Virus record (IMG/VR): IMGVR_UViG_3300023292_000002
Coordinates: 1 to 46,925 of that record
Source: a virus
Reading direction: 5' to 3' (one strand)
Length of the DNA stretch: 46,925 nucleotides
In this document: positions 10,795-38,779 of the stretch, one piece after another
Position numbering within the stretch: the first letter of the stretch is position 1
How the letters are laid out: each line of letters starts with the position of its first letter
Translations under genes and position numbers: made by a program
Notes under the pieces: generated by a model
What the model was told of the DNA's origin: nothing
Database searches by the model: none
What the model saw: the letters and a program-made list of their open reading frames with translations, nothing else

Positions 10795-13109
10795 AGAAAA
10801 TTATAATTTCATTAATGTTGTTGAGTTTAACAATTCCTTGCTATGCTCAGTTTGCAAAGAATATCATTATATATGATGATGGTGTTCATGTTGATGGTGG
10901 GGGAAGACAACTTAATTTTGCTACTGGCGATTCAGTTACATTTAATGATACAACACAGCATTATGATATTATTAGTGATTTAGATTTAAGTGGCTACGTT
11001 CCTTATACAGGAGCAACTGCTAACGTTGATTTAGGTGCGTTCGATCTGTTAGCATCAGATATTACTTTATACAATGTTGCTGATACTAACCTTACCCTTT
11101 CATCTGCTTATGGTGATGAAGGTGGAGGAGTAAATACTTTTGATATGATAGAGAGTGGTGCAAGTGCTACTGCTCACGAATTTGGCACAGCCTACAACTT
11201 TGGGTTTAGATGGTTATATGACCCAGACACAAATAATCTCTCGCTAAGCACAGGAGAACACACCACAGTTACAGAGTTACTAAGTATAAATTATGCTACT
11301 AAAGATTTTGATTTTATAGATAAAAATATTATTACATTAGGCGATGTTGCTGCTAGTACATTTAACAGTGGAACATTGTCAGGAAACAACTCCGGCGACC
11401 AGAAATACAATGGTATCCTTGACCCTGATGGCAACTCTACGCTGGATTTTACAACATATACAAATGATTGGGTAACAACATTTGCCGGAACAGCTCACAA
11501 TCAAGCATTTCATACAATCACAAACAATAGTAATTCTGGTACGTACACTCATTATGGATTAAAAATCAACTATCCTAATATTGGCAATAATTCAAATTCT
11601 GCGTATATATCTTGTCAAGACCAATACAGAGAAGTATTCAGAGTTAAAGGGAGAGGACGGGTTATTGCGGGAGCTGGACTTGAAGTTAATTCTACTGGGT
11701 GGGGCGACGCTACAGGCAATTTTTTAGTAAAAACAGATACGTCAAATATAATTTCCACTGATGCCGCTAATGACTTGCTTTATCTTGGCGGTACAACAAA
11801 CGGTATACGTATAGGAATTGGAGGTGCATTAACTCTTATAGGAACAAATGGCGATTGGGATTTGAATGCTTCAAGTGTAACAACAACAGGAACAGCAGCA
11901 GTAGGAGCTTTATCTGCAATAACTGCTATTGGTGCGGTTACAGTTGATAGTGCTTCTCATGTATTAACAACTGGGAAAGGTGGGAACCATGATGGTTCTG
12001 GTGGGGATGCTGGTGATGGTGGAGATATAACATTAACCGCTGGTGATGGTGGTGATGGGTATTATAACGCCACAAGAGGTTCGGGTGGGGACATTATATT
12101 ACACCCTGGGCTTATGGGTGGTTTGGGTGACAGCGGTGGCTCTCCAAGAGATGGTATAGTCAATGTTCAATCAACACTTGAAGTTAATAGTGCTGATGGT
12201 CCAACAGCAGAGAACGCCCCAGCTGCAGTGGTAATTAATGCAGGGGACGGTGGGATAGGTGTGGGTATTGCAAGAATACCTGGCGGAGATGGCGGGATAA
12301 TAACATTCACTACGGGGGACGGTGGAGAAGGCGAGGCCCCAACAGCCAATGATGGGAGTGGTGGAGATTTAACACTTGCCACTGGTGCAGGTGGTACTAC
12401 ACATGCAGGTGGTAACGGCGGCGATATTATATTGTCTCCTTCTGCCATAGGTAGTGGTGTTGACGGGAAAGTTTTACTTAACGCAGCTACAGAAATAACA
12501 GGAGATTTAACAGTAGAGGGAGATATTACATTAGGTGATGGAAGTGCAGCAGACCCACGCATAACCTTCGACTCAGGTAATGACGGATATATAGAATGGC
12601 AAGAAGATGAAGAACAGTTTCATATTGAAGGTGGAGTAGAAATTTCTACTTGGCTTACCATTGGAACAGTTTTAACAACTCAGGACCTTATAATAGGTGA
12701 CGCAGGTGAAATTGAATTAGATGTTGTTCCAGCAAGTGACCACACAGGAACTGGTATTATAGCTACCATGACAGTAGATGCTAATACATATGGGGTAGCT
12801 TCTGCTTTACATTTAGATACTGATGGGAATTGGATTGAAGCAGATGCTGATGCAGCGACAACAATGCCATGTACTGCTTTAGCTTTAGAAACTGGAACAG
12901 GAAGTAAAAAGGTATTATTTCAAGGAATTGTGCGTGATGATACATGGAACTGGACAGTAGGTGGAATTGTTTATATAAGCACAACAGTAGGACAACTTAC
13001 TCAGACAGCACCTTCTGGAACTGGCGATCAAGTACAAGTTGTAGGAATAGCAACTCACGCTGATAGAATATATTTTAATCCAAGTCTAGTCTTAGTGGAG
13101 GTTTCATAA
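10782..13109 (+). CDS. Gly-rich tail-fibre-like adhesin with signal peptide
   Basis: 775 residues. It begins with a Sec signal (MANLKKIIISLMLLSLTIPCYAQ). Around residue 75 it has YVPYTGATANVDLG, a motif common in phage fibre and adhesin proteins. Residues about 400-560 are Gly/Asp-rich with repeated GGDITL or GGDIIL units (GDGGDITLTAGDGGDG), suggesting a polyglycine-type or beta-helical shaft. The C-terminus (VLFQGIVRDDTWNWTVGGIV) resembles a small beta-barrel trimer or decoration-like fold. It is probably a receptor-binding fibre. The signal peptide is unexpected for a cytoplasmically assembled part. Confidence 0.75.
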   Translation: MANLKKIIISLMLLSLTIPCYAQFAKNIIIYDDGVHVDGGGRQLNFATGDSVTFNDTTQHYDIISDLDLSGYVPYTGATANVDLGAFDLLASDITLYNVADTNLTLSSAYGDEGGGVNTFDMIESGASATAHEFGTAYNFGFRWLYDPDTNNLSLSTGEHTTVTELLSINYATKDFDFIDKNIITLGDVAASTFNSGTLSGNNSGDQKYNGILDPDGNSTLDFTTYTNDWVTTFAGTAHNQAFHTITNNSNSGTYTHYGLKINYPNIGNNSNSAYISCQDQYREVFRVKGRGRVIAGAGLEVNSTGWGDATGNFLVKTDTSNIISTDAANDLLYLGGTTNGIRIGIGGALTLIGTNGDWDLNASSVTTTGTAAVGALSAITAIGAVTVDSASHVLTTGKGGNHDGSGGDAGDGGDITLTAGDGGDGYYNATRGSGGDIILHPGLMGGLGDSGGSPRDGIVNVQSTLEVNSADGPTAENAPAAVVINAGDGGIGVGIARIPGGDGGIITFTTGDGGEGEAPTANDGSGGDLTLATGAGGTTHAGGNGGDIILSPSAIGSGVDGKVLLNAATEITGDLTVEGDITLGDGSAADPRITFDSGNDGYIEWQEDEEQFHIEGGVEISTWLTIGTVLTTQDLIIGDAGEIELDVVPASDHTGTGIIATMTVDANTYGVASALHLDTDGNWIEADADAATTMPCTALALETGTGSKKVLFQGIVRDDTWNWTVGGIVYISTTVGQLTQTAPSGTGDQVQVVGIATHADRIYFNPSLVLVEVS

Positions 13110-13369
13110 TGGCACTTGGAGTTGAATTATGTACTAATCCAGGATTTTATCCGTTACTTACGCCTTGGGTGATTGAAGGTTTTGAATGGGCTCATTCTTT
13201 TGACGTAGTGGAATATACAGATTATGGTGTAGACGATACTTTTTATCAAACTATAAGCATTACAGAAAATAGTTCATATTCAATAACTGTTAATGGAGTA
13301 GCAACAGCAAATATGGCAAAAGTAAATAGCGTTGCGAAAGCAAATATAAAAGAGATTAATCAAACATAG
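13109..13369 (+). CDS. Small fibre-associated protein, possibly a truncated binding module
   Basis: 86 residues, overlapping the preceding stop by one base. The first two thirds (NPGFYPLLTPWVIEGFEWAH, then DTFYQTISI) look like the beginning of a carbohydrate-binding jelly roll of the NPGF-W-W type, but the protein stops long before a full module. The tail has a short Ala/Asn/Lys repeat (ATANMAKVNSVAKANIKEIN). It may be a shortened binding domain; no function is shown. Confidence 0.55.
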   Translation: MALGVELCTNPGFYPLLTPWVIEGFEWAHSFDVVEYTDYGVDDTFYQTISITENSSYSITVNGVATANMAKVNSVAKANIKEINQT

Positions 13370-13378
13370 GAGAAAATA

Positions 13379-13405
13379 ATGGCTAAAAAAGGTTCATGCG
13401 GTTGA
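13379..13405 (+). pseudogene. 8-codon remnant of the MxKKGSCG small basic protein
   Basis: ATG, with AGGAGA upstream, encodes MAKKGSCG and then stops. The 31-residue basic protein at 14142 begins MASKKGSCGG, and the two share the DNA string aaaaaaggttcatgcgg. The short copy therefore looks like a truncated duplicate. It could also be a minimal leader peptide for the GTG-start gene that follows. Confidence 0.35.
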
Positions 13406-13438
13406 TAGTAATATAATAGACAACTAAGGAGATACAAC

Positions 13439-13663
13439 GTGAATAAATTAGAATTAACATCAGATGAAGTAGAAGAAATCAAAGACGACGCTGTATTTAA
13501 GTATAAAGTAATACAATCGCTTAAAACATTGGCGGGTCTTCCTTGCGAGGAACGCGCAAAAGATATGAAGAAAATTGAAATATGGCTTAAAGGAATAACA
13601 ACACAAGTATATTTCCAATGGGGGGTATTAGCTGTAATATTATTTACAATAATAAGGAAATAA
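13439..13663 (+). CDS. Small protein with C-terminal membrane helix, lysis cassette
   Basis: 74 residues, GTG start at 13439 with AAGGAG nine bases upstream. The first 50 residues are charged and helical; the last 20 (VYFQWGVLAVILFTIIRK) form one transmembrane helix with a basic end. It opens a run of small membrane genes that ends in a spanin-like pair, so a holin, antiholin or membrane-anchored lysis regulator is plausible. No family match is claimed. Confidence 0.6.
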   Translation: MNKLELTSDEVEEIKDDAVFKYKVIQSLKTLAGLPCEERAKDMKKIEIWLKGITTQVYFQWGVLAVILFTIIRK

Positions 13664-13678
13664 TAAAAGGAGGCAACC

Positions 13679-13870
13679 ATGAACGATTGGCTAAAGCCTA
13701 GAACAGTATTCGCAGCATTTTTTTATTATACATATTTAGTGATGATTTCATGCGGGATTGAAACGCCATCACTTTTAAATAAAATAGTAATGGGATTATT
13801 TATTTTTTATTATACAAATAAAGCAATTAAAAAATTAACGCAAGGAGCAGGCAATGTTTCAAAAAATTAA
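13679..13870 (+). CDS. Holin-like small membrane protein
   Basis: 63 residues with two hydrophobic helices (TVFAAFFYYTYLVMISCGI and LLNKIVMGLFIFYYT) and a basic C-terminal tail, the layout of small class II-type holins. AAAGGAGG precedes its ATG and it overlaps the next gene by 17 bases. Position in the lysis cassette supports a hole-forming role in the inner membrane. The role is inferred. Confidence 0.6.
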   Translation: MNDWLKPRTVFAAFFYYTYLVMISCGIETPSLLNKIVMGLFIFYYTNKAIKKLTQGAGNVSKN

Positions 13871-14138
13871 GGAATGGTTTCTCGGGCTTATTCTTCCAGC
13901 ATTAAAACAATTCTTCAAAGCTGTATTTACTAAGGCAAAACAAGAAGTGATTTCAGCATTACAGGATATTGCGGTTAATGCGGTAATGGAGGCAGCAAGC
14001 ACAGATTTATCTAATGAGGAAAAACGCAAGATTGCTTTTGATACGATTAAGAAGTATGCTCAAATAAGAGGCATTGAAACAAGGGATTCTATAATTAATT
14101 TAGTGCTAGAAATGGCACTCCAAGCTGTAAAGGGGTAA
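13854..14138 (+). CDS. LLH-type holin-like protein
   Basis: 94 residues. One N-terminal hydrophobic helix (EWFLGLILPALKQFFKAVF) is followed by a helical cytoplasmic part containing LSNEEKRKIAFDTIKKYA and RGIETRDSIINLVLEMA. That order (single helix, then the S/T-x-E-E-K-R-K-x-A segment, then a terminal helix) resembles LLH-superfamily phage holins. It may work with the two-helix protein upstream as holin and antiholin. Confidence 0.6.
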   Translation: MFQKIKEWFLGLILPALKQFFKAVFTKAKQEVISALQDIAVNAVMEAASTDLSNEEKRKIAFDTIKKYAQIRGIETRDSIINLVLEMALQAVKG

Positions 14139-14141
14139 ATT

Positions 14142-14237
14142 ATGGCAAGTAAAAAAGGTTCATGCGGAGGTAGCCCTCGTGTAGGAAGCAAAGGCGATCC
14201 TAAACCAAAAAGAGGCAGTGGAAGAAGAAGGAGATAA
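14142..14237 (+). CDS. 31-residue Arg/Gly-rich basic protein
   Basis: The ORF runs from ATG at 14142 to TAA, product beginning MASKKGSCGG and ending KRGSGRRRR. It is strongly basic, with one Cys and no predicted fold. It lies three bases after the holin-like gene and two before the next, so the spacing fits a translated gene. A nucleic-acid-binding or membrane-active peptide is possible. Its N-terminus is duplicated at 13379. Confidence 0.5.
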   Translation: MASKKGSCGGSPRVGSKGDPKPKRGSGRRRR

Positions 14238-14239
14238 TT

Positions 14240-14449
14240 ATGGCAAGTAAGCCCGGATGGGGAACAGCCGTTGGATGGATATTTTCTATCCTTCCAAGTA
14301 AAGAGGAGTCAAGGAGGAATAAGTATGCAAAACTCAAAAAGAAACGAGAAAAGATATTTAAAAAAGCTGATACCGAAGCTAATCGTCGTAAGCTTGTTGA
14401 TATTGATAGGCGGATGCTCGTTATTGAGCGTAAAGCGATTAACCAATAG
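14240..14449 (+). CDS. Spanin-like inner component (weak) hosting a nested lipoprotein gene
   Basis: 69 residues. A short hydrophobic N-terminal stretch (GWGTAVGWIFSILP) is followed by a charged helical region (YAKLKKKREKIFKKADTEAN, then RRKLVDIDRRMLVIERKA). A lipoprotein gene begins inside it in another frame, the arrangement seen in lambda Rz/Rz1. The membrane segment is weaker than in typical i-spanins, so the assignment rests mainly on the nesting and position. Confidence 0.55.
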   Translation: MASKPGWGTAVGWIFSILPSKEESRRNKYAKLKKKREKIFKKADTEANRRKLVDIDRRMLVIERKAINQ

Positions 14450-14561
14450 AAAGCCAGCTATGATTGGATGGGGGGAGAAGGGCGTTGCTCCTACTTCTGT
14501 CTACGAAAATTATTCGTGGGAGATTAAGGCTCGATGTTATCCTGAATGTGAGGTTGAATAA
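14325..14561 (+). CDS. Spanin-like outer-membrane lipoprotein (Rz1-like)
   Basis: 78 residues. The start at 14325 has AAGGAGG eight bases upstream; an in-frame upstream ATG at 14271 has no such site. A basic N-terminus and hydrophobic core (LIVVSLLILIGGCSLL) contain the lipobox LIGGC, so the mature protein should start at the lipid-modified Cys. It begins within the preceding gene in a different frame, as o-spanins often do. It would join inner and outer membranes to complete lysis, which implies a diderm host. Confidence 0.7.
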   Translation: MQNSKRNEKRYLKKLIPKLIVVSLLILIGGCSLLSVKRLTNRKPAMIGWGEKGVAPTSVYENYSWEIKARCYPECEVE

Positions 14562-15028
14562 TGAAAATTCTAAAATCTGTATGGATAGCATTATTTACAA
14601 TGATTTTTGGGATGAGTGGAGGACAAGGCAAAATTGGAGGAAAAGCTCCTAGACGCTTTGGAATAGGCATTTTTTCTTTTATAACAGCTATTTTCCATGA
14701 TGGATTCGATTGGAAAGATTGCACGTTTCTCTTATTAATACCATTTCTTATTATGGGATATGGAGAAAACTCTTTTCTTATGGGCTGGTTAGGCTCTGAA
14801 TGGCTTGTGCGAGTAGTATATGGGCTTCTCCTATCATTACCGTTCTTTTTCTTCGGGTGGCGTAGAGGGGCATTTGCGGGTATTTTATTGGCTATTGCTT
14901 TTTCTGTTCATTTAGGCAGTTTTGGGAATATAGCAGGATTTGGGGATCTCTTAGGTGAAGATGCTGTCCGGTACGGAATATTGGGGATATTAATAGCCTT
15001 CAATATTTTCTTTCCAAAGAAAAAATAA
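14561..15028 (+). CDS. Multi-pass membrane protein closing the late operon
   Basis: 155 residues with about four hydrophobic segments (FGIGIFSFITAIF, FLLLIPFLIMGYG, VVYGLLLSLPFFFFGW, GILGILIAFNIFF) and a basic C-terminus (FPKKK). It overlaps the lipoprotein stop by one base. Small polytopic proteins of this kind often follow spanin genes in phages, but its function is unknown to me. A strong terminator follows 26 bases after its stop. Confidence 0.65.
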   Translation: MKILKSVWIALFTMIFGMSGGQGKIGGKAPRRFGIGIFSFITAIFHDGFDWKDCTFLLLIPFLIMGYGENSFLMGWLGSEWLVRVVYGLLLSLPFFFFGWRRGAFAGILLAIAFSVHLGSFGNIAGFGDLLGEDAVRYGILGILIAFNIFFPKKK

Positions 15029-15054
15029 TTTACCTTCTCACTCCCATGAGACGA

Positions 15055-15086
15055 AACGTCATTCTTTTTAGAGTGGCGTTTTTTTA
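15055..15086 (+). terminator. Rho-independent terminator ending the late operon
   Basis: AACGTCATTC pairs with GAGTGGCGTT (ten pairs, two of them G-U) around a six-base T-rich loop, followed by a run of Ts. It lies between the last late gene and the early promoter. Confidence 0.85.
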
Positions 15087-15100
15087 TTTATTCTTTTTTC

Positions 15101-15122
15101 TTGACAAGTCTTGTCTGGTCAA
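15101..15122 (+). promoter_or_regulatory. Operator-like palindrome inside promoter P1
   Basis: GACAAG-T-CTTGTC (15103-15115) is a near-perfect palindrome spanning the -35 box and spacer, and an outer inverted pair TTGAC/GTCAA extends it to 15101-15122. The first gene downstream encodes a ribbon-helix-helix-like protein, so repression by its own product is an attractive inference. The other two promoters lack this sequence. Confidence 0.65.
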
Positions 15123-15129
15123 CTATACT
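15101..15129 (+). promoter_or_regulatory. Early promoter P1 (sigma70 type)
   Basis: Consensus -35 TTGACA, exactly 17 bases, then -10 TATACT. It directly follows the late terminator and precedes the first early gene by 31 bases. The initial transcribed stretch contains TAAGTAACA, which recurs just downstream of the promoter at 28581. Confidence 0.88.
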
Positions 15130-15160
15130 CTAAGTAACAAATCGGAAGGAGGAAAAATTT

Positions 15161-15313
15161 ATGGGAACAAAATTTTATAAAAGTATTGGATTAAGGATTG
15201 ATACCGACGAGGCGCAAAGAGTAGAAAACATTACAAACAAGGATGTCAGCTTGATTGATATATTCAGAGCGGGCATAAAATATTTTGAACGTAAATTAAA
15301 AAAGGACGCATAA
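15161..15313 (+). CDS. Ribbon-helix-helix DNA-binding protein (probable autorepressor)
   Basis: 50 residues, first gene of the early operon, with AAGGAGG upstream. The layout fits a ribbon-helix-helix (CopG/Arc-type) dimer: a short strand (FYKSIGLRID), a helix (DEAQRVENIT), then a second helix (SLIDIFRAGIKYFERKL). Such proteins bind palindromic operators through the paired strand, and one overlaps the promoter 30 bases upstream. It could silence early transcription once made. Family by pattern, target by proximity. Confidence 0.65.
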   Translation: MGTKFYKSIGLRIDTDEAQRVENITNKDVSLIDIFRAGIKYFERKLKKDA

Positions 15314-15471
15314 TGGATCAGATTAAAGTCGACGGAAAAAAAAGACGAGTTAGATGGTTTGGAAAAGTTAAAGTTCTTTCTGAAAAAGGAGACGTTAAAA
15401 AAATTGTCCGTAATAGCGGATATATGTTTGTGAAGAATGAGCCAAAAACTATTTATACCAATGAGATATAA
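15313..15471 (+). CDS. Small basic early protein, unknown
   Basis: 52 residues, start overlapping the previous stop by one base (TAATG). It is Lys/Arg/Val-rich (VDGKKRRVRWFGKVKVL) with alternating hydrophobics, suggesting a small beta barrel such as an SH3- or OB-like nucleic-acid or protein-binding fold. No family is recognised. Early position suggests host-takeover or regulatory use. Confidence 0.55.
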   Translation: MDQIKVDGKKRRVRWFGKVKVLSEKGDVKKIVRNSGYMFVKNEPKTIYTNEI

Positions 15472-15485
15472 GGAAAGGTAAAGGT

Positions 15486-15596
15486 ATGAAATTATTAATT
15501 GAAATACTTGCAAGGGTAAGTGTCGCACTAGATAAATTCTATGCGAAAGTTTACTACAGGATGCAGGAATTAAGAAATGGGGGCAACCATGAGTAA
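15486..15596 (+). CDS. 36-residue early protein, unknown
   Basis: A short amphipathic helical product (MKLLIEILARVSVALDKFYA) with an AAGGAAAGG ribosome site. It overlaps the next gene by 8 bases, a spacing typical of translated phage genes. Function unknown. Confidence 0.45.
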   Translation: MKLLIEILARVSVALDKFYAKVYYRMQELRNGGNHE

Positions 15597-15738
15597 ACAC
15601 GGATTAAGTTGTTGGGGCTGTAACCATCCAATTAGTGAAGGAAGAGACACAGTATTTTGGGATGATTCAATCCCGCCTAAACCATTATGTAAAGAATGTT
15701 TTGAAAACGTACAACAGGAGGGAAATGATGAAAGTTAG
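15589..15738 (+). CDS. Small zinc-ribbon protein
   Basis: 49 residues with two Cys pairs, CWGC near residue 8 and CKEC near residue 34, spaced as a treble-clef or zinc ribbon, and a short acidic tail. The start at 15589 has a GGGGG ribosome site just upstream. It overlaps the start of the ERF gene by 14 bases. It probably binds zinc; the partner is unknown. Confidence 0.6.
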   Translation: MSKHGLSCWGCNHPISEGRDTVFWDDSIPPKPLCKECFENVQQEGNDES

Positions 15739-16378
15739 AGAAGCATTAGAAAAAATTCAAACAGAGCTAATTGCTCCAAAAAGCCAAAAGAATACTTTTG
15801 GAAATTACAATTTTAGATCATGCGAGGATATTCTTAAAGCAGTAAAGCCACATCTTAAAGAATGTAATTGCATATTAACAATCACAGATGAATTAGTTGT
15901 TAGCAATGCGCTAGAAACAGAAATTATTATCGTCGCTAAAACTCCAAGAGAAGTACAGACACAAAGAGTTTATATTAAAGCAATCGCAACAATATCAGAT
16001 GTAGACGGAGAATCAATTTCAACATCAGGGTTCGCAAGAGAATCTTCCTTAAAGACAGGCATGGATTCAAGCCAGCTAACTGGGGCAACTTCTTCTTATG
16101 CTCGTAAATATGCTTTAAATGGCTTATTTGCAATCGACGATACAAAAGATTCAGATTCAACAAATAAGCATGGGAAGGAAGAAGTAGAGACCTCAACAAA
16201 GCCTGATGTTGGTATGCCTGAGAAGAAAACAACAACTCAGACAACGGAAAAAAAAGAAAACCCTGAGCTTTTAGTTTGTTCGAAATGCCAAGAGGAAATC
16301 AAGAAGAATGTTTATGATTATAGTATGGGTAAATTTAATAAACCTCTCTGTTTCGACTGCCAAAAGAAGGTTAAATAA
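15725..16378 (+). CDS. erf: ERF-family single-strand annealing protein
   Basis: 217 residues from ATG 15725 (ATGATG, with GGAGGG upstream; a longer frame from 15635 would run through the zinc-ribbon gene and is rejected). The region KNTFGNYNFRSCEDILKAVK, and later SQLTGATSSYARKYALNGLF, are hallmarks of the ERF recombinase family, with the G-x-x-x-x-Y-x-R-K-Y-x-L core. A C-terminal zinc knuckle (CSKCQEEI, CFDCQKK) follows a Thr/Lys-rich linker. It anneals complementary single strands in phage recombination, presumably with the exonuclease encoded next (one-base overlap). Confidence 0.88.
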   Translation: MMKVREALEKIQTELIAPKSQKNTFGNYNFRSCEDILKAVKPHLKECNCILTITDELVVSNALETEIIIVAKTPREVQTQRVYIKAIATISDVDGESISTSGFARESSLKTGMDSSQLTGATSSYARKYALNGLFAIDDTKDSDSTNKHGKEEVETSTKPDVGMPEKKTTTQTTEKKENPELLVCSKCQEEIKKNVYDYSMGKFNKPLCFDCQKKVK

Positions 16379-16971
16379 TGAACCAAGTAACATTTGAACC
16401 AGTAGAGCATAAGTATTTTGATGAGAATGGAAAAGACTTTCCTTCTGTAACAACATTACTTAAACATTTCGGAATGAGTCCAGACTTTGCTAAGTGGGGA
16501 AACGACGCTTCACGAAATTTTGGTTCTGCGGTTCATAGGGCATTGGAGTTGTTTGATAATGATGTTTTAGATCAGTTTAATTATGATGCTGAAATTGAAC
16601 CTTACCTTAACGCATATAAAAGGTTCTTAGATGAATTTAAGCCTGTATGGGAGTTTGTCGAGATACCTATGTTGTCAAAGGTGTGGGGATTTGCTGGTTG
16701 TGCGGATAGAGTGGGAGTGATAAAAGGAAAGAATGTTGTTCTTGATTTTAAAACTGGTTCTCCTGACGCTTCACATGAATTACAAACGGCAGGGTATCAG
16801 GTGTTAGTTGAAGAAAATTCAGCATTAAAAATAAAAGAAAGATACTCTTTGTATTTGAAAGCTGATGATTTTAGACTTTCACCTCCTCATGTAAATAGGA
16901 GTGATAGGTCAATTATGATTGGACTTTCACAAGCGTATCAATTCAAAACAAAACATAAACTAATTAAATAA
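16378..16971 (+). CDS. RecB-like PD-(D/E)XK exonuclease
   Basis: 197 residues. It carries the RecB-nuclease pattern: His53 in GSAVHRALELF, Asp110 in GCADRVGVI, Asp123-x-Lys125 in VLDFKTG, and Gln136-x-x-x-Tyr140 in LQTAGYQ. It likely degrades one strand of dsDNA ends to give substrate for the ERF protein; the pair resembles a lambda Red-like or Cas4/RecB-type system. All catalytic positions are present. Confidence 0.85.
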   Translation: MNQVTFEPVEHKYFDENGKDFPSVTTLLKHFGMSPDFAKWGNDASRNFGSAVHRALELFDNDVLDQFNYDAEIEPYLNAYKRFLDEFKPVWEFVEIPMLSKVWGFAGCADRVGVIKGKNVVLDFKTGSPDASHELQTAGYQVLVEENSALKIKERYSLYLKADDFRLSPPHVNRSDRSIMIGLSQAYQFKTKHKLIK

Positions 16972-16982
16972 GGAATAATAAA

Positions 16983-17594
16983 ATGCAAAAGTACATGATT
17001 TTCGACACAGAAACAAACGGATTATTTGATTTTTCTAAGCCTGCTGATGCTGACGGACAGCCTCGCCTAGCAAGTTTGGCAATGATTATTCTTGATGGAG
17101 ATCTCAAAGTTGAAAGTGCTGAGACTTATTTTGTCAAACCTGATGGATGGAAAATGACAGAAGGAGCAACGGCTGTAAATGGTTTAACTGATGAGTATTT
17201 AGAAGCTAATGGAATACCTATTGAGGAAGTTCTTCTTAAATATTCAGAGATTGTTGACGCAGGGATAGACCTATATGCTTTTAACGCTCAGTATGACACG
17301 AAGGTCATGCGTTCTGAGTTTAGGAAGCTAGGTCTTGATGATAGGTTTGAGCAAACAAAAAACACCTGCATTATGAAAGCTTTAATTGATGTGTGTCAAA
17401 TCCCTAGAAAGAGTGGAAAAGCGTTTAAATATCCGAAACTTGTTGAGGCTTGCGCTCATTTCGGAATTGACTTTCCTAATCAGCATACGGAAATGGGAGA
17501 TGCAACAGTAACAATGGAGCTTTTAAAGAAGTTGATTGAGTTGGATATGCTTCCTGAGCCTGAAGTTCATTATGCGAAAAAAAGACCAGTATAA
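16983..17594 (+). CDS. DnaQ-like DEDDh 3'-5' exonuclease
   Basis: 203 residues with the exonuclease motifs in order: FDTET (Asp8, Glu10), NAQYDTKV (Asp105), and HTEMGDA (His168, Asp173). This is the RNase T/pol III epsilon type. No phage DNA polymerase was found, so it may proofread with the host polymerase, trim recombination intermediates or degrade host nucleic acid. It is transcribed with the ERF and RecB-like genes. Confidence 0.87.
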   Translation: MQKYMIFDTETNGLFDFSKPADADGQPRLASLAMIILDGDLKVESAETYFVKPDGWKMTEGATAVNGLTDEYLEANGIPIEEVLLKYSEIVDAGIDLYAFNAQYDTKVMRSEFRKLGLDDRFEQTKNTCIMKALIDVCQIPRKSGKAFKYPKLVEACAHFGIDFPNQHTEMGDATVTMELLKKLIELDMLPEPEVHYAKKRPV

Positions 17595-17627
17595 TAATTA
17601 TTAAATTATAAACAAAAGGAATTAATC

Positions 17628-18317
17628 ATGGAAACTAAAGAAATAGCAACAATCGAAAAAAATGCGGTTAATGCAGTTAATAATGCAAACGCGCTGATCA
17701 TTGGTAATCAGAAAGATTATGATGGTTGCGCTAATATGCTAAGAGCAATTAAAGGATTGAAGAAAGAAATTGACAATTCTTTTGATGAATCAATCAAAAA
17801 GGCTCATGAAACGCATAAGACAATGGTTGCCGCTAAAAAGAAACATTATGATCCACTTAATGAAGCTGAGAAGATCATTAAGGGTAAAAGCCTTGTTTGG
17901 TATAATGAAGAGCAACGTAAACAAAGAGAGGAGCAGAGAAAACTTGATGAACAAGCTAAAAAAGCAGAGGAAAAACGAAAAAAGGTTCTTGAAGATCAAG
18001 CAAAACAGCATGAAGCTAATGGCAATGCTGATAAAGCAGAGGAACGACGGGCAATGGCAGAGGAAGTATTTGTACCAGCCCCAATAGTTGAAGAGAGAGC
18101 AACAAAGGCAGAAGGTCAGGCAGTTGTTACAAGATGGTCGGCTAAGGTAACGGATCTGTTCGCTTTATGTAATGCGATCGCAAAAGGGGACATTCCTGAA
18201 TCTTGTGTAAAGCCGGATATGTCTCAGTTAAATGCTTTAGCTCGAACATGGAAAGATAAACGTAAGTTCGAGGGAGTTAGTTTTGTTAAAGAACAATCAA
18301 TGAGCGTAAGGGGGTAA
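17628..18317 (+). CDS. Coiled-coil recombination-module protein
   Basis: 229 residues. Helical N-terminus, a long Lys/Glu/Arg coiled coil around residues 90-140 (REEQRKLDEQAKKAEEKRKK), and a compact C-terminal domain (CVKPDMSQLNALARTWKDKR, then FEGVSFVKEQ). Proteins of this layout commonly sit beside ERF or RecT genes in phages, but I know no established biochemical role. An AAAGGAA site precedes the start. Confidence 0.65.
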   Translation: METKEIATIEKNAVNAVNNANALIIGNQKDYDGCANMLRAIKGLKKEIDNSFDESIKKAHETHKTMVAAKKKHYDPLNEAEKIIKGKSLVWYNEEQRKQREEQRKLDEQAKKAEEKRKKVLEDQAKQHEANGNADKAEERRAMAEEVFVPAPIVEERATKAEGQAVVTRWSAKVTDLFALCNAIAKGDIPESCVKPDMSQLNALARTWKDKRKFEGVSFVKEQSMSVRG

Positions 18318-18318
18318 T

Positions 18319-18911: not shown

Positions 18912-19154
18912 ATGAAAAAATTATTAATATCGTTAGCAGTTTTAGGGGTTTTCGCAGCCGTAGCGTTCGCGTCAACAGATTATAAATGTATGAGCGATTG
19001 TTCTGCTCAAGGTTATATGTATTCATATTGCAAAAGTCAATGTAGTTATGGTAATGTTCCTGAAAGAAAAGGCAGGAGAGATTATCAATGTGTGACTGAT
19101 TGTACCGCTAAAGGATATATGTATAGTTACTGCAAAGATCTATGCAGTTATTAA
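18912..19154 (+). CDS. Secreted Cys-rich protein with two CX3C-X9-CX3C repeats
   Basis: 80 residues. It has a Sec signal (MKKLLISLAVLGVFAAVAFA) and then two near-identical 24-residue units: KCMSDCSAQGYMYSYCKSQC and QCVTDCTAKGYMYSYCKDLC. Each has four Cys in the pattern C-x3-C-x9-C-x3-C, the arrangement of disulfide-linked helical hairpins. Export would allow oxidation in the periplasm. It may act on the host envelope, exclude other phages or inhibit a periplasmic enzyme. AAGGAG precedes the start. Confidence 0.7.
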   Translation: MKKLLISLAVLGVFAAVAFASTDYKCMSDCSAQGYMYSYCKSQCSYGNVPERKGRRDYQCVTDCTAKGYMYSYCKDLCSY

Positions 19155-30974: not shown

Positions 30975-33113
30975 ATGCCAAAAAACAAGTTAAAAGAGCT
31001 TGAAGAAGCAATAGAAGATACGCAAATCATTGAGCGTACAGATATTGAAATGGAAGATTCAGAGCCAAAGGATGAAGATGGTCCTGACCAAGTGCTGATT
31101 GACTTACCTACTGAAGCGATTGAGCGTTTAACTGATGGAGTATTTAGGTTGTTTGAGTCTTTAAAGGCTGACAGAAAAGAGAATGACGATAAGTGGGATA
31201 ATTATGAAGCGCAGTATGAAGGGGCAATGGAAGAAAATAGCATGATGGAGTTCAGTCTCAATGTGCCAGTAACAATGGTCAAGTGTGATTCTGTTGAAAG
31301 ATTGGCATTACAAGCGTTTTTAGAGAGTGATCCTAAGTTTACAAGCCGATTAAGACCAGAACATATGAAGAAGGGCATGAAAGATGATGAAATTGAAGCA
31401 GTTCAGCAGAAACAAGAGGATTATTTAGACTATCAGCTTGATGAACGCATTAATATAGCGAGTCCATTACGTCAAGTATTACATCAATCCACTGTTTTAG
31501 AAGGTGGGCTAATGAAAGTTCCTTATGAATTTAAGCGTAAACGAAGGACAAGAGTAGAGTTTTATTCAGGTAAGCGTGTCATGGATGATAAGGTAGGGCT
31601 TGAAAGGGCAGAAGGATTGCCGGAGTTTATTAGGAATTATCCAAAGGCAGCATTGCCGGGTAGAGAAGGGAACAAATACTACAATCAGCTAATGAAGTTT
31701 GAGGATGTGAATGTAGAAGCGACGTATTGGGAAGTCAAGTATGATGATGCGGCTCCTAAGTTTGTTGATGCGCGAGACTTTTATGTAAGAAAGAGTTGTG
31801 AAGGTTACGCTGGTCTTGAAGAGGAACAGATCAAGATTGAACGTGAAAGGTTTACATTTTGGGAGTTAGAAGCTCTTGAACGTGCTGAGAAGATGATAAA
31901 CACAGATGACATGAAGTTTGCAACGGCAGAGGAAGCTAAAACGCTTAGTGTTGATAAAGAATATGACTTAAAAGAGCATGATGTTCTTACGATAGATTAT
32001 TATTTCAAGCTGGATAAAAGGGATGAAGACGAAACGCGCATTATTTGTTGGTTTGGAGAGCATAACAAGGTATTTTTAGGGGCAATCATCTATCCGTATC
32101 ACACAGTTGATAGTATTTATGTACCTTTTTACATTAAAGATAAGAAGAAAGGGTTTTATAAAGGTGGTATGGCAGAGGTTTTGACAGACAGTAATATAGC
32201 ACAGAACGCTATTTTGAATATGATGTTGACTGAATCATGGTTACAGTTGATTAATACACCAGTAATTCGTGAGGGTTCAAGTGTAGCAGATCAGATATTG
32301 AGTGGTAGATGGGGTCCGGGTGTACCTTTAGTTGTAGATGCAGAGGTTGAAAGTGTCGCTGAAGACATCACGTACCTCAATAAGCCTACAACAGGCGTGG
32401 CAGGGCAAATGATTAATGTGTTATTATTCCTCAGCCGTATGGATGATGACCGTACAGGCATTAACGCAGGGTTATCGGGTAAAGAATCTCCTACGGATCC
32501 AGAGGCTCCGGCAGCTAAGACAGCAATGTTATTAAAGCAATCAGGTATTAATGTTAAGGAATACATTAACTGTTTGCTTCCGTCTTTCAATAAGGTTGGG
32601 GAAATTATATTACAGTTGACGTATCAGATGAGTAATTCAAGCCGAAGGTTCAGGAATAACCGCATGAGAGCCGTTGTTGGTGGGGATGCTTTTGGAGAAA
32701 TCAGCCGAGATGAAATGATATTACAATCAGTAATAGAATCTAGGGCATCCAGCTTTGATTTCGATAAAATCAATGAGAAGAGAGAAAATCTTGCTATTTA
32801 TCAGTTGTTAAGGCAAGAACCTATTGTTGCGCAGAATCCAAAGGCCGTACATGAAATGGTTAGGATGTTGTTAAAGAGTTGGAGTCCATCATGGAAAGCA
32901 AAGGCAGATAAGCTGGTATTGACAAATGAAGAGTTTGACGCGGAATTAACGTCATTAGGCGTACAGGCTCTTGTTCAATATATGAAAACAGTTAAAGCAA
33001 AGGAAGAAACAACAGGTGTCAAGGCTCCAGTAGACATTCAGGAGTATCTAGGAATGGCGTATCAGATGATAAACCAAGTTATTAACCCTCCTAAAGAAAC
33101 GGAGAAGAAATGA
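30975..33113 (+). CDS. Portal protein
   Basis: 712 residues directly after TerL, the expected place and size for a podovirus portal. Acidic N-terminus, a central domain with KWDNYEAQYEGAM and VTMVKCDSVERLALQAF, then a conserved stretch (ALPGREGNKYYNQLMKFEDV) and a helical C-terminal half that would form the wing, stem and crown. The tail is Lys/Glu-rich. Assignment by order, length and general pattern; P22-type or T7-type cannot be decided. Confidence 0.88.
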   Translation: MPKNKLKELEEAIEDTQIIERTDIEMEDSEPKDEDGPDQVLIDLPTEAIERLTDGVFRLFESLKADRKENDDKWDNYEAQYEGAMEENSMMEFSLNVPVTMVKCDSVERLALQAFLESDPKFTSRLRPEHMKKGMKDDEIEAVQQKQEDYLDYQLDERINIASPLRQVLHQSTVLEGGLMKVPYEFKRKRRTRVEFYSGKRVMDDKVGLERAEGLPEFIRNYPKAALPGREGNKYYNQLMKFEDVNVEATYWEVKYDDAAPKFVDARDFYVRKSCEGYAGLEEEQIKIERERFTFWELEALERAEKMINTDDMKFATAEEAKTLSVDKEYDLKEHDVLTIDYYFKLDKRDEDETRIICWFGEHNKVFLGAIIYPYHTVDSIYVPFYIKDKKKGFYKGGMAEVLTDSNIAQNAILNMMLTESWLQLINTPVIREGSSVADQILSGRWGPGVPLVVDAEVESVAEDITYLNKPTTGVAGQMINVLLFLSRMDDDRTGINAGLSGKESPTDPEAPAAKTAMLLKQSGINVKEYINCLLPSFNKVGEIILQLTYQMSNSSRRFRNNRMRAVVGGDAFGEISRDEMILQSVIESRASSFDFDKINEKRENLAIYQLLRQEPIVAQNPKAVHEMVRMLLKSWSPSWKAKADKLVLTNEEFDAELTSLGVQALVQYMKTVKAKEETTGVKAPVDIQEYLGMAYQMINQVINPPKETEKK

Positions 33114-34189: not shown

Positions 34190-34216
34190 CAGTAGACATA
34201 GAACACTTGGGAAAGC

Positions 34217-34259
34217 AATCCCTCGAATGGATGGAAACAGCATCCGCGGGGGATTTTTA
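34217..34259 (+). terminator. Terminator-like hairpin between Com-like and scaffold genes
   Basis: AATCCCTCG pairs with CGGGGGATT (nine pairs, one G-U), with an inner GGATG/CATCC stem, followed by TTT. The 3' side closely resembles that of the leader at 19894 (GGGGGATTTTT). It lies in the 165-base gap 34190-34354, which also has a small hairpin CCGAT-AAT-ATCGG at 34320-34332 and no clear promoter. It may set the level of scaffold and coat expression. Confidence 0.65.
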
Positions 34260-34354
34260 TATAAAAGAGTAAAGGCGAACCAGAATAATCTGCAAGCCAC
34301 AAACAAACGCAAGTCAAACCCGATAATATCGGCACGACACTATAGGAGGATGAA

Positions 34355-35473
34355 ATGAAACCAGACGGAACAGAAATCTTAAATGTTGCACCCGAAAACT
34401 TTGAAGGGGAGATAACTCCTGAACAACAGAGTGTTCTTGATGCCAACGCTAAAAAGCCTTGGGACGGAGAGGATGTTGTTGATGAGAAGAAGAAACCTGA
34501 AGAGAAAGAGGAAACCGACAAAGACGAAGATTCCAAAGACGAAGATGATTCCTCCGAAAAGAAGGAAGATGACTCTGAAGATGATTCTAAGGATGACGAT
34601 TCAAAGAAGGATGAGGATGAAGACGATTCCAAAGATGATGATTCTAAAGAGGAAGAATCCGAAGAAGAGCAATTAAGAAAGATTGCCGAAGAAGATGGGA
34701 TGACTGTTGAAGAGGCGAAAGAAGCTATTGCCAAAGATAAGGCTGTAGTTGAACGTCATGGCAGTGATCCTGTAAAGATAGCGCGTGCTTTAAGAAAAGA
34801 GCAGAGTGAGTACGGAAAACTCAAGAACGAGAACGAAAAGCTGGTAAGTTACAAAGAAGGCATTGAAAATCAACAGAAGGCATTTAATGAGAGTCAATTT
34901 GTTTCTCATTGTGACAATAACAGGGATGAATTTGTTGAGAAGTACACTAAATACCATCCTGAACAGTCTGAGTTAAGTGAAGATGTTTTGTTTGAACGAG
35001 CCAAAAATGAGTTAAGGGAAGTTATTAAGACACAAGCCACTGAGAAAGAGAATAAGTTAAAAGTCTCTTCTGAGAGTAGACGGCAAGAGTTACTTGATAC
35101 AATCCCTGAAGAGTTCAAAGAGGTTGTTCCTGAAATCAAAGCGATTCTTAAAGAGGTTGATAATAGCCATGTGTTGACAAAGGATTTTGATATTATGCAC
35201 ATAGCTCATTATGCACGCGGAAAGAAGTATACACCTGAATATGTTAAGTCCTTGATTGCAGAAGCGTCGAAGCGAGCGAAAGAGGAACCCAAGATTAAAG
35301 AGAAGAACACTATTCCTGCTGGTGGTAGAGGCGGGAGTAAGGGTAAAGTCAGCGTTCTTACACAAGATCAGAAGGATAGAGCGCATGAAATCTACTCTAA
35401 TGAAGATTGGGATGAAGCTAAGATATTCAGTGAATACGAAAAACATCATAAAGGTAAAGACTTTAATGATTAA
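34355..35473 (+). CDS. Scaffolding protein
   Basis: 372 residues. Very acidic low-complexity stretch around residues 45-108 made of Asp/Glu/Ser/Lys (DDSSEKKEDDSEDDSKDDDS), then helical and coiled-coil segments (VARHG-type SDPVKIARALRKEQSEYGKL), and a basic C-terminus (GGRGGSKGKVSVL followed by QDQKDRAHEIY) that could bind coat protein. Charge layout and position just before the coat genes fit a phage scaffold. AGGAGG upstream. Confidence 0.78.
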   Translation: MKPDGTEILNVAPENFEGEITPEQQSVLDANAKKPWDGEDVVDEKKKPEEKEETDKDEDSKDEDDSSEKKEDDSEDDSKDDDSKKDEDEDDSKDDDSKEEESEEEQLRKIAEEDGMTVEEAKEAIAKDKAVVERHGSDPVKIARALRKEQSEYGKLKNENEKLVSYKEGIENQQKAFNESQFVSHCDNNRDEFVEKYTKYHPEQSELSEDVLFERAKNELREVIKTQATEKENKLKVSSESRRQELLDTIPEEFKEVVPEIKAILKEVDNSHVLTKDFDIMHIAHYARGKKYTPEYVKSLIAEASKRAKEEPKIKEKNTIPAGGRGGSKGKVSVLTQDQKDRAHEIYSNEDWDEAKIFSEYEKHHKGKDFND

Positions 35474-35498
35474 TAGATAAAGTTTAAGGAGGATTATT

Positions 35499-35963
35499 AT
35501 GTATGACGGACAAATGCTTAGATACGGACGCATTAACGAATCAGCCGCAGGCGCAGGGATAGTTCCTGTTCCAATGGAAGCGTCACAGGTTGTTACTGCT
35601 CAAAGTGGGCGTTTTGTGTTTATGAACACATCTTCACAGGCTGAGTTGTGTGATGATGATTCTGCTACTATTTTCGGATGGTTACAGACTCATGCACATA
35701 CGCCTACAGATGGAGATACGCTTGCTTGTGAAGTCGATTTAACAGCAATCTATCGTGTTCCTATTATCACAGGTACGTTTGTGAATGGAATGATTGGGGA
35801 TTTGGTTGACCTTGATATTTCAAGCGATGTGCAGGGTGTTGATTTAACGGCTTCAATCCATGATCTATTGATTATTGTCGCTGGTGACACGACCAATAGC
35901 AAGTGGGTTAATGTTATGATGAATCCTGAAGAGTGGGGAACAGCTACAGGAGCAGAAGCGTAA
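35499..35963 (+). CDS. Capsid decoration-like protein
   Basis: 154 residues between scaffold and coat, beta-rich and Thr/Asp-rich (VPMEASQVVTAQSGRFVFMN, then AIYRVPIITGTFVNGMIGDL). The pattern of a small beta barrel with an N-terminal arm resembles head decoration and stabilisation proteins. TAAGGAGG upstream. Role by position and fold impression. Confidence 0.65.
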   Translation: MYDGQMLRYGRINESAAGAGIVPVPMEASQVVTAQSGRFVFMNTSSQAELCDDDSATIFGWLQTHAHTPTDGDTLACEVDLTAIYRVPIITGTFVNGMIGDLVDLDISSDVQGVDLTASIHDLLIIVAGDTTNSKWVNVMMNPEEWGTATGAEA

Positions 35964-35999
35964 TTGAGCTATTATGTTCAATTTTAGAGGATATGACTA

Positions 36000-36623
36000 A
36001 TGGGTTATACGCAACAAGGCGAATGTCGTAATACTGGTAGGACGCATTTAAAAAAAGGACACAAATTATGCGTTGGCAGAGTTTTGTCTGAAAAAACAAA
36101 GGCTCTTATTGGTAAAGGCGTAACAGCTAGGACTAAAATACAAGGTGGTCCTATGCTAGGAAAAAAACAAACGCCAGAAGCGAGAAAGAAAATCAGTGAG
36201 GCGGTTAAGAAACAAAAAAACCGCGGAAGCAATAAAGGACAACATTGGTCATTAGAAAGAAGAAATGCTCAAGATGAAAGAAAAAGGCTTGGGAAAAAAA
36301 ATAAACGATTCGGTAAAATAAGAATAATTACTAAATATAAACCAATAAAACATAAATGTGGAGATTATCATCCAGCATGGAACGAGATTAGAAAAGTAAT
36401 TTATAAAAGAGATGGATGGACGTGTCAAGTTTGTGGGGTACATTGTAAAGGTAGTGTATCTAAAAAAACACGATCTATAATTACTTGTCATCATATTGAT
36501 TATGATAAAAAGAACAATGATCCATTAAATTTAATTACTCTTTGCAGGTCTTGTCACATGAAAACTAATTTTGATAGATTAGATTGGATAAATTTTCTCA
36601 AAACACAGAAAGGTTCAAAGTAA
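36000..36623 (+). CDS. HNH homing endonuclease with NUMOD3 motif
   Basis: 207 residues, inserted between the decoration and coat genes. The N-terminal half has NUMOD3-type DNA-binding motifs (GKKQTPEARKKISEAVKK). The C-terminal half has the HNH nuclease with zinc Cys pairs: CQVCGVHC, then CHHIDYDKKNNDPLNLITLC and RSCHMKTN. It is much more basic and AT-rich than its neighbours, consistent with a recent selfish insertion. It does not interrupt either flanking gene. Confidence 0.88.
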   Translation: MGYTQQGECRNTGRTHLKKGHKLCVGRVLSEKTKALIGKGVTARTKIQGGPMLGKKQTPEARKKISEAVKKQKNRGSNKGQHWSLERRNAQDERKRLGKKNKRFGKIRIITKYKPIKHKCGDYHPAWNEIRKVIYKRDGWTCQVCGVHCKGSVSKKTRSIITCHHIDYDKKNNDPLNLITLCRSCHMKTNFDRLDWINFLKTQKGSK

Positions 36624-36626
36624 ATC

Positions 36627-37634
36627 ATGCCAGGAATTAGTTCAGAACAGATGGCTTTATATAAGAATGAAATGTATGAAGTCTCAAGGGAATCTTACAA
36701 ACTGAAGCCTACACAGTTTGATAAGATATATAAAGTTAATACGAAGGCAAAAGGGGCTGGGGATAAGTACACTCAGCTATTAGGGGCTGACAAATTGACC
36801 AAGAAATCGGTACAGGGTCAAGGGTTCACGTTCCGTAGTCCGGTACAGGGTTGGACGACACTTGTGTGTTACCAGACCTACTTTGACGCGGTTAAATTCG
36901 ATAAAGAAGAAGTCGAAGATAACGTGAAGAGTGGGGCAATCGGAAAAACATTGAAGGATTATGCTTCAACTTGGGGAGACGCTTATCGTGTTTCCAAAGA
37001 AGAGTTTGCGGCTAGTTTCTTCATTTATGGTGGTTTAACAGGTGGAGATTCTATCTTTGACGGATCTTGGGGCGATAATACTGATGCTTCAGGTGATGAT
37101 CTTTATGATAGCATCCCATTTTTCACATTAACGGGTGTACCTCGAACCACGAAAGACGGTTCAACGTATTATAACGCAGTTACATCAAGCGCGTTAAATC
37201 CGACTAACTTCGGTACTCTTTATGACTTGATGGCTGTCACGAATGGGTACAATGAAGTTGGTGTGAGAGTTGAGAATAAACCTGATACGCTTCTGACACA
37301 AGATGGTTCAGATTATCGGGCAGCTCGTAAGTTGTTAGAATCGGATAAGTTGCCGGGTGGGGAATTGAACGATATTAACCCATACAAGGGCATTTGTAAA
37401 CCTCTTGCATGGTCTTATTTAAGTGGTGGTGCTTGGTATGTATTAAAAGCACAAGATCCTACGTTGCAGTTTGACGATAGGCAAGCTCCTGTGATTGATT
37501 TTTACAGGAATAAAGAGACTCGTGGATATATGTCTACCATTGATTCAAGGTTTGGTGTCCATTTAAAGCCGGGTGTATGGAGAAAGATTGCTCGTAACGG
37601 TGGAAGTGCTGCCGCTAATAGAGCAGCAATGTAA
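36627..37634 (+). CDS. Major capsid protein
   Basis: 335 residues following scaffold and decoration genes, the expected place and length for an HK97-fold coat. N-terminal helix (SSEQMALYKNEMYEVSRESY), then SPVQGWTTLVCYQTYFDAVK and a long beta/alpha body ending RNGGSAAANRAAM. The start lies four bases after the HNH stop; AAAGG upstream. Named by position and general pattern. Confidence 0.8.
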   Translation: MPGISSEQMALYKNEMYEVSRESYKLKPTQFDKIYKVNTKAKGAGDKYTQLLGADKLTKKSVQGQGFTFRSPVQGWTTLVCYQTYFDAVKFDKEEVEDNVKSGAIGKTLKDYASTWGDAYRVSKEEFAASFFIYGGLTGGDSIFDGSWGDNTDASGDDLYDSIPFFTLTGVPRTTKDGSTYYNAVTSSALNPTNFGTLYDLMAVTNGYNEVGVRVENKPDTLLTQDGSDYRAARKLLESDKLPGGELNDINPYKGICKPLAWSYLSGGAWYVLKAQDPTLQFDDRQAPVIDFYRNKETRGYMSTIDSRFGVHLKPGVWRKIARNGGSAAANRAAM

Positions 37635-37636
37635 TT

Positions 37637-37921
37637 ATGACAGACTCAGCTAATAGTCTAATTGGGAAATGCCCTATCTGCTCCGCTCCAAGCGGGGCGG
37701 ATGCGGCAGATATATCAGATGCTTATGTAACTGAAACTCTGGTGGATAGTGATGAACTGATGCCTTTATTATGGTCAGAGCATTATCAGAACCACGTTTG
37801 TCGTTCATGCTTAGAGTTAGGGAAAGATGAGGATTTTGATGATCTCCGAAATGATGAAGATGTTCTTGGAGAACAGGAGCGTCAAAAGATGGGTTTTGTT
37901 AAGAATTACACAACTAATTAG
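37637..37921 (+). CDS. Small acidic zinc-ribbon protein after the coat gene
   Basis: 94 residues. CPICSAPSG near residue 13 and CRSCLELG near residue 56 form a four-Cys zinc site. Rich in Asp. Starts two bases after the coat stop. In the head operon it might be a head-completion or capsid accessory protein; unknown. Confidence 0.55.
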   Translation: MTDSANSLIGKCPICSAPSGADAADISDAYVTETLVDSDELMPLLWSEHYQNHVCRSCLELGKDEDFDDLRNDEDVLGEQERQKMGFVKNYTTN

Positions 37922-37932
37922 GAGGAACGGAA

Positions 37933-38253
37933 ATGGTAACGAAACGAGAGACAGCGTTGACAAACTTTATAAAGAAAATTAAAGAGTGTAAATCGCTAAA
38001 AAAGTTAGATGATCTCGCAGAGGCAATCGACAAAGTTTATAAAAAAGAAGGTGGATTAGTTCCTGATGAGTTACTTGCTATTGGTGAAGCTAAGGCAAAA
38101 GAGCTTGAAAAGAAAATTGCTAAGCCAAAAGTTAATTCTGCTGATCCTTCAGAGTGGCGAGTTGTCACTATGGAAGAGAAGGACAAAGCCGAGGCTGATG
38201 GCAAACTTGCTGGTTGGAATCAGAGGACTATGGAAGCATTAATTAATAAATAA
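37933..38253 (+). CDS. Small head-module protein, unknown
   Basis: 106 residues, helical N-terminal two thirds (FIKKIKECKSLKKLDDLAEA), then a C-terminal motif (SEWRVVTMEEKDKAEADGKL) with alternating charge. Its ATG is preceded by TTAGGAGG. No family is recognised. Confidence 0.55.
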   Translation: MVTKRETALTNFIKKIKECKSLKKLDDLAEAIDKVYKKEGGLVPDELLAIGEAKAKELEKKIAKPKVNSADPSEWRVVTMEEKDKAEADGKLAGWNQRTMEALINK

Positions 38254-38263
38254 GGAGGATTTG

Positions 38264-38779
38264 ATGCGAAGATTCAAAGGATTAGGATTGATTATCGCTT
38301 TAGTGATGTTATTCATTCTTCCTGTTTTTGCGTCGACTATTCAGTCAACGCTAGGTGGACAGGATTCAAGTGGCAATTATCATTTTACAGTTGATTCAGA
38401 TGGAGTTTTAGCTGGTGCTTCTGGTTCGGTAACGAATGTATCACGAGCATATGAAGCAATATCAGCGACGGAAGAAACTTTAGTTGTTGCCGATAATGGT
38501 AAAATTCTTGTTGCGACAGCTACTTCTACAACTACGTTTACACTTCCTACAGCAGTTGTTGGTATGGAGTTTACGATTGTAGCAGGAAAAGGTCAAACTA
38601 TTAGCGTTGATCCAGCTTCAACAGCAGATACTATTGCGTATCTTACGTTAGATGCAGGAGATGAAATTGATAGTGCTGGTGTAACAGCTGATTCAGTTAC
38701 GCTTAAATGTTATACAGCGAACACGTGGATTCCTGTAAATATGGGTTCATCGGCGTGGAGCGATGGCGGATCCAGTTAA
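38264..38779 (+). CDS. Exported protein with signal peptide in the structural operon
   Basis: 171 residues from ATG 38264 (TAAGGAGG upstream; TTG at 38261 is less likely). Sec signal (FKGLGLIIALVMLFILPVFA), then a beta-rich Thr/Ala/Asp body (ISATEETLVVADNGKILVAT) with strands like TFTLPTAVVGMEFTIVAGKG, a pattern seen in fibre tips and small adhesins. It ends in Ser/Gly. Overlaps the O-antigen ligase-like gene by 17 bases. Confidence 0.65.
   Translation: MRRFKGLGLIIALVMLFILPVFASTIQSTLGGQDSSGNYHFTVDSDGVLAGASGSVTNVSRAYEAISATEETLVVADNGKILVATATSTTTFTLPTAVVGMEFTIVAGKGQTISVDPASTADTIAYLTLDAGDEIDSAGVTADSVTLKCYTANTWIPVNMGSSAWSDGGSS

Follow-up and report, generated by a model that had tools for sequence, protein, structure and literature searches.

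Predicted Sec-type signal peptides on the tail nozzle and other external virion proteins of a tailed-phage clade

The virion arc and its predicted signals

We analysed the virus record IMGVR_UViG_3300023292_000002 from IMG/VR over positions 1-46,925 (the window), with a focus on the Sec-type signal peptides predicted at the N-termini of its virion-type proteins, among them the tail nozzle encoded from position 41896. Genes are named here by their start, and relatives' loci and records used in comparisons carry L-numbers (L005-L091). The last 127 bases of the window, 46799-46925, repeat positions 1-127, and because of this terminal repeat we treat the record as circular. The virion genes run in the order TerL (29164), portal (30975), capsid genes, 38264, a Wzy_C gene, adaptor (41196) and nozzle (41896), and continue past the nozzle with a fibre gene that crosses the junction (44309 to 630), followed by 644, 1451, the ejection-type proteins and 10782. 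A preliminary description of this DNA had located the feature at 13109-38264; that range is the non-virion arc, and the feature lies on the other arc, from 38264 through the join to 13109. The features are as follows.

From 29164: TerL; no signal
30975..33113, plus strand: portal; no signal, used as a control
36627..37634, plus strand: probable major capsid protein, from its position and a homologue in the L026 genome (12777); no signal, used as a control
38264..38779, plus strand: head-proximal appendage-type protein, 171 amino acids (aa); predicted signal peptide, cut after 23
38763..39980, plus strand: O-antigen ligase/O-oligosaccharyltransferase-like membrane protein (PF04932 Wzy_C, 33.9 bits)
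41196..41894, plus strand: head-tail adaptor; no signal, used as a control
41896..44325, plus strand: tail nozzle/hub, 809 aa; Sec-type signal peptide, predicted cut after residue 21
41896..41958, plus strand: predicted nozzle signal peptide MIKKIISFLFIFMCISSVSFA, rule score 14.6
44309..46798, plus strand: junction-spanning tail fibre, 5' part; TTG start; PHROG tail protein match, 4.7e-4
1..630, plus strand: junction-spanning fibre, 3' part
44309..44377, plus strand: predicted fibre signal peptide MKIFINILFALLIGCGVNTPVFA, rule score 13.8
644..1435, plus strand: fibre-like protein with an Mtd second domain (PF21916, 27.7 bits, cut-off 24.6); predicted signal peptide, cut after 20
1451..1849, plus strand: small predicted exported protein, 132 aa; signal by rule, cut after about residue 21
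2449..3318, plus strand: protein matching PHROG tail-fibre families (phrog_12032, 4e-27); no signal, the exception
3303..10498, plus strand: ejection-type internal proteins 3303, 4009 and 4622 (GH108 domain); no signals, used as controls
10782..13109, plus strand: Gly-rich fibre, 775 aa; signal peptide by rule, cut after 22

Signals were called by a purpose-written rule for the n-, h- and c-regions, used in place of SignalP 6. The rule passes 11 of 12 well-known E. coli signals and 0.5% of random N-termini of window composition. Of the P22 (35 tested) and T7 (54) genes, those that pass are limited to spanins and small membrane-type proteins; the virion proteins of both phages are all negative. 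Seven of the 51 window genes were strongly positive: 41896, 44309, 644, 1451, 10782 and 38264, together with 18912. The first six had been described from the sequence as beginning with a basic n-region, a hydrophobic core and a cut site, and the rule confirmed all of them. Each has a K/R n-region, a core free of acidic residues and an A-x-A-type site, consistent with the n-h-c arrangement and the small residues at -1 and -3 of Sec/signal peptidase I substrates. The predicted cuts (^) are MIKKIISFLFIFMCISSVSFA^QW in the nozzle, MKIFINILFALLIGCGVNTPVFA^EG in the fibre 44309, MKKYLFIILALMIAVPVLGA^NQ in 644, MKKFIVIAFLFLSLICVEANA^EV in 1451, MANLKKIIISLMLLSLTIPCYA^QF in 10782 and MRRFKGLGLIIALVMLFILPVFA^ST in 38264 (rule score 17.1). 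The fibre reads through the join as 1039 aa from its TTG start at 44309; the start of 10782 has no clear Shine-Dalgarno sequence and overlaps the preceding gene. As had been noted for the neighbouring head and adaptor proteins, the window TerL, portal, scaffold, capsid and adaptor have no signal by the rule, and the same is true of the ejection-type products 3303, 4009 and 4622.

Two other readings of these N-termini were rejected. The possible lipobox LIGC pointed out in the preliminary description would make the fibre a lipoprotein cut by signal peptidase II; it occurs only in the window's own fibre and is not conserved in the homologues of its relatives. A reading based on disulfides was set aside as well, the predicted mature exported proteins holding few cysteines (0-3 each). 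The seventh positive gene, 18912-19154, lies outside the virion block and encodes an 80-aa Cys-rich repeat protein with a signal (MKKLLISLAVLGVFAAVAFA^STDYKCMS) that looks like a host-derived secreted protein. Within the virion block, HNH-like (homing-endonuclease-type) genes on the minus strand, at 1842-2372 in the window and 3182-3613 in L015, adjoin or overlap Mtd-like or small exported genes.

The tail nozzle and the history of its signal

Early pointers to a hub role for 41896 were weak PHROG structural-protein matches and, in a profile comparison, an annotated phage stabilization protein at 95% probability. A first AlphaFold model from 6 sequences was unusable (predicted local distance difference test score, pLDDT, 38.7), and a 10-sequence alignment gave a model with a modest mean pLDDT of 52.6. 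When the latter was compared with the PDB by Foldseek, the best 23 matches were all podovirus tail or portal-tail entries (E 2e-12 to 3e-5), including cyanophage A4, Pa223, VP1, GP4, HRP29, the crAss001 muzzle, T7 gp12, SU10, P22 gp10 and Sf6. The global TM-scores of these matches are low because the domain orientations in the model are unreliable; the ranking is unambiguous despite this. Direct alignment of 41896 to single P22 gp10 or T7 gp12 sequences by hhalign gave nothing, and a PDB sequence search gave nothing useful. Further support is provided by gene order: the nozzle gene lies directly 3' of the adaptor gene in the window, and this order is kept in L010, L011, L012, L014, L016 and L026. 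By its modelled fold and its gene position, the 41896 product is a podovirus tail nozzle, and its likeness to the podovirus nozzle family (T7 gp12, P22 gp10, Sf6 gp8, the crAss001 muzzle, SU10, cyanophage A4) lies in that fold and in the adaptor-adjacent gene.

To see whether the signals are conserved, the preliminary description had proposed an alignment of homologues from related phages. IMG/VR searches yielded 40 distinct nozzle homologues with a readable N-terminus, 21 with a signal peptide and 19 without. In a maximum-likelihood tree of the mature nozzle parts, all 21 signal-bearing sequences are split from the others by a branch with 100/100 support, and the signal label needs a single change. 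The signal is thus conserved in 21 of 21 nozzles of one clade, in contrast to the nozzles P22 gp10 and T7 gp12, which have no signal peptide. Since no signal is present on nozzles further away (C72C1, ct52p938, P22, T7), a gain on the stem of the clade is the simpler history on this unrooted tree. On the nozzle tree, the predicted signal has one evolutionary origin. L017 was left out of the counts for want of a start codon before the contig end; its positions 1-200 hold a nozzle frame with a signal-like stretch (TNKRLITLTLSLLLIASPVFS^QQQD).

The signal has been retained in all 21 lineages despite drift. Over 21 pairs the mean identity is 26% for the signals and 56% for the mature nozzle parts, and the relatives' nozzle signals, diverged to 17-38% identity, are all still signals; upon random replacement to 40% identity, a signal survives in only about 8-10% of trials. 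Residue -1 is A in 18 of the 21 nozzles and G in the other 3, and residue +1 is Q in 11. The 17 nozzle and fibre signals that were tallied are 18-24 residues long and contain no acidic residue. In the signal-less nozzles the distance from Met to the anchor column is about 15 residues, compared with a median of 13 from cut to anchor in the signal-bearing ones; the former therefore start near the predicted mature N-terminus of the latter.

These observations bear on a choice set out in the preliminary description, between hydrophobic ends that remain uncleaved for docking and export of part of the tail. Uncleaved ends could anchor the nozzle and fibres in the inner membrane for head docking and tail building. 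The nozzle models do predict N-terminal helices, a basic n-region followed by a hydrophobic core would also suit an anchor, and exported parts held in this way would escape dilution. An anchor has no need of a cut site, however, and A-x-A-type sites are kept here under strong divergence, on signals that are short and with signal-less homologues that begin close to the predicted mature end. We therefore consider an anchor unlikely: conservation under drift, the alanine at -1, the acid-free signals and the sister-clade starts all favour cleavable export signals.

Signal-bearing genes beyond the nozzle

The trait extends to the genes around the nozzle. The gene 3' of the nozzle bears a signal in 16 of the 16 clade loci where it is visible, called by the rule in 15 and by eye in L091; none of 15 sister loci has a signal there. 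Other signal-bearing genes occur at 0.457 per kb in the clade versus 0.054 per kb in sister loci. The 49-kb L026 record holds 15 signal-bearing genes, mostly in one late block; one of them, near the position corresponding to 644, encodes a Phage Tail Collar protein (3.5e-23). No signals were found on the L026 TerS, TerL, portal, scaffold, capsid, adaptor or ejection-type proteins, and 40 kb read from the signal-less relative L018 contained zero signal-bearing genes. Several of the window genes have counterparts in relatives. A homologue of 644 is present in L015 (6e-7). L011 and L015 encode signal-bearing proteins comparable to 1451 in their small size 3' of the fibre, and there is one in L010. 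The C-terminal match to phrog_12121 is common to 10782 and a signal-bearing 1153-aa protein of the L026 genome, and a signal-bearing gene occupies the position of 38264 in L012 (7604) and in the L026 genome (14279, 707 aa). We rejected the fibre domain as the source of the signal: many other phages have this central domain without a signal, and the signal therefore belongs to the clade, not to the domain.

A second occurrence of signal-bearing tail parts is likely in L041, an unrelated lineage, where 9089-17897 encodes four proteins with predicted signals, one of them a Peptidase_S74 tail spike (2.3e-51 to PHROG tail spike). Isolates whose fibres match L041 have no signals.

Other genes of these records were noted. 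A signal-bearing protein encoded at 5702-6358 in L026 and its 210-aa homologue in L073 resemble outer-membrane barrels, end in a C-terminal Phe and lie among tail genes, an arrangement similar in idea to lambda Lom. In the L026 genome, the TerL encoded at L056 4428-6935 seems to be interrupted by an intein (CLDPNTKVLTSDLKWV ... SHN) that carries an insert resembling a homing endonuclease. A 659-aa frame at 1-1980 of L018, upstream of the portal, consists almost entirely of Ser-rich (SSSSKSSSS) repeats. Homologues of the Wzy_C gene are present in L005, L011, L012 and the L088 record, with a second copy in the L012 record, and were not found in the 49-kb L026 record or in most other records, many of which are fragments. 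Because of this absence we regard Wzy_C as accessory to the trait, and a glycosylation link, in which a PglL-type ligase would act with exported tails, was dropped on the same ground. Scans of genome contigs for a host gave no host-linked relative of the clade, the only hit being a 37% fibre match, without a signal, in a Caldithrix metagenome-assembled genome; megablast and portal tblastn against phage isolates gave no match.

Proposed export and comparison with known systems

Conserved signal-like, cut-site-bearing N-termini are restricted to external virion parts, and they sit on unmistakable virion domains, the Phage Tail Collar of L026 and the Peptidase_S74 spike of L041. The specificity for surface-exposed parts proposed in the preliminary description is thus supported, with 2449-3318 as the exception. 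It is very probable that the window N-termini direct real export via Sec. We propose that late in infection the nozzle, fibres, collar-type and head-appendage proteins would pass SecYEG, that signal peptidase I would remove their signals, and that the exported tail parts would then take up their fold in the periplasm. The cytoplasm would be where heads are assembled with their portal, adaptor and ejection proteins and are filled; tail parts and heads would meet when the inner membrane gives way at lysis, or at places where heads gain access to the periplasm. From the sequences we infer the cleavage, the location, the timing and the entry of exported copies into the virion. We incline, by a little, to this model as a whole, in which the tail exterior is exported, cleaved and joined late to filled heads. 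On a wider claim we are evenly divided: that in a clade of double-stranded DNA (dsDNA) tailed phages the subunits of the tail, those of the nozzle among them, are exported by Sec and processed, and that virions are completed outside the inner membrane, in an assembly spread over two compartments.

Several points weigh against such an assembly. Cleavage, periplasmic location and virion composition are all predicted. A nozzle normally helps to seal the DNA-filled head; if it is exported, the adaptor or another plug must therefore hold the pressurised DNA until joining, and this is the main difficulty. Exported parts would dilute after lysis unless tethered, the signal-less sister nozzles show that the fold can do without export, and the product of 2449-3318 lacks a signal while matching tail-fibre families.

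The signals might instead be inefficient, so that some of the tail protein goes outside to mask receptors or act as a decoy while virions use the cytoplasmic copies, with superinfection exclusion or the freeing of progeny from debris as the purpose. Phages do place their own envelope proteins in tail gene blocks, for example lambda Lom (PMC12309495), and the outer-membrane-like proteins of L026 and L073 are signal-bearing and encoded among tail genes. A mask needs only receptor-binding proteins, yet the structural nozzle bears a signal in every member of the clade, and the signals look strong rather than leaky; we judge such a dual fate improbable. An unusual host or infection compartment, such as a membrane-bound assembly site with a topology unlike that of a standard diderm, would fit a trait limited to a single clade, and perhaps a single host group, besides the separate lineage L041. 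The genome scans gave no host-linked relative in the clade, and we think such a compartment quite unlikely. Some block genes (a lipoprotein, the outer-membrane-like proteins, Wzy_C nearby) may fit envelope-modifying factors of the moron or Lom type, but as a general account this is very doubtful, being ruled out for the nozzle by fold and adaptor synteny and likewise for the Phage Tail Collar protein and the S74 spike. Scarcely credible is a start-site artefact, in which translation begins past a hydrophobic stretch read by chance: the signal character is kept in 21 lineages against a chance rate of about 0.5%, and in five of the seven clade nozzles checked (L010, L011, L012, L014, L016) the 45 codons past the cut offer no in-frame restart that is usable and has a good ribosome site, those of the window and L026 nozzles holding only weak GTG or TTG candidates. 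Homologues that start past the hydrophobic stretch, which the preliminary description had named as evidence against the signals, do exist, solely in the separate 19-member sister clade. For the nozzle, a start-site artefact and a non-virion envelope factor are both nearly excluded.

Tailed-phage assembly is taught as entirely cytoplasmic, and a clade with conserved predicted Sec signals on nozzle, fibres, collar-type and appendage proteins would break that rule. The trait, which this uncultured short-tailed phage shares with at least 20 relatives, suggests a virion partly made beyond the inner membrane, and leaves one to ask how filled heads are kept sealed before tailing. The signal-bearing and signal-less sister clades form a natural comparison for the benefit of export, candidates being periplasmic folding, modification, receptor masking and a delay of tail addition until lysis. 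Filters that drop signal-bearing proteins as non-virion will miss virion parts.

In the literature searched, where coverage was partial and absence is no proof, no signal-bearing nozzle or fibre is reported for a tailed phage; the signals reported on tailed-phage proteins are those of spanins, endolysins, Lom and one internal virion protein. The clade thus appears to work like no described tailed phage found there. Signal-arrest-release (SAR) or Sec endolysins, spanins, lambda Lom and superinfection-exclusion lipoproteins share with it phage-encoded Sec signals near late genes, but these are lysis or host-envelope proteins, whereas here the nozzle and fibres bear the signals. The ejection protein gp7 of P22, a component of the virion, loses its first 20 residues to a host protease, according to its sequence record; that protease is OpdA, and gp7 fails the signal rule. 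The Mtd second domain of 644 (PF21916, above cut-off) recalls Bordetella phage Mtd and the targets of phage diversity-generating retroelements. Such target proteins are reported to lack signal peptides, unlike 644, and this lack has been cited as support for a phage origin of fibre-like proteins (PMC6199706). The nearest idea is the coat export of filamentous phages, whose virion proteins are likewise Sec precursors. M13 pIII and pVIII are made in this way. The hijacking of the secretion machinery by filamentous phage is described in PMC4823517. They are single-stranded DNA phages that assemble at the membrane and are extruded; the window, with its TerL, portal and capsid genes, falls outside that type and is a dsDNA tailed phage.

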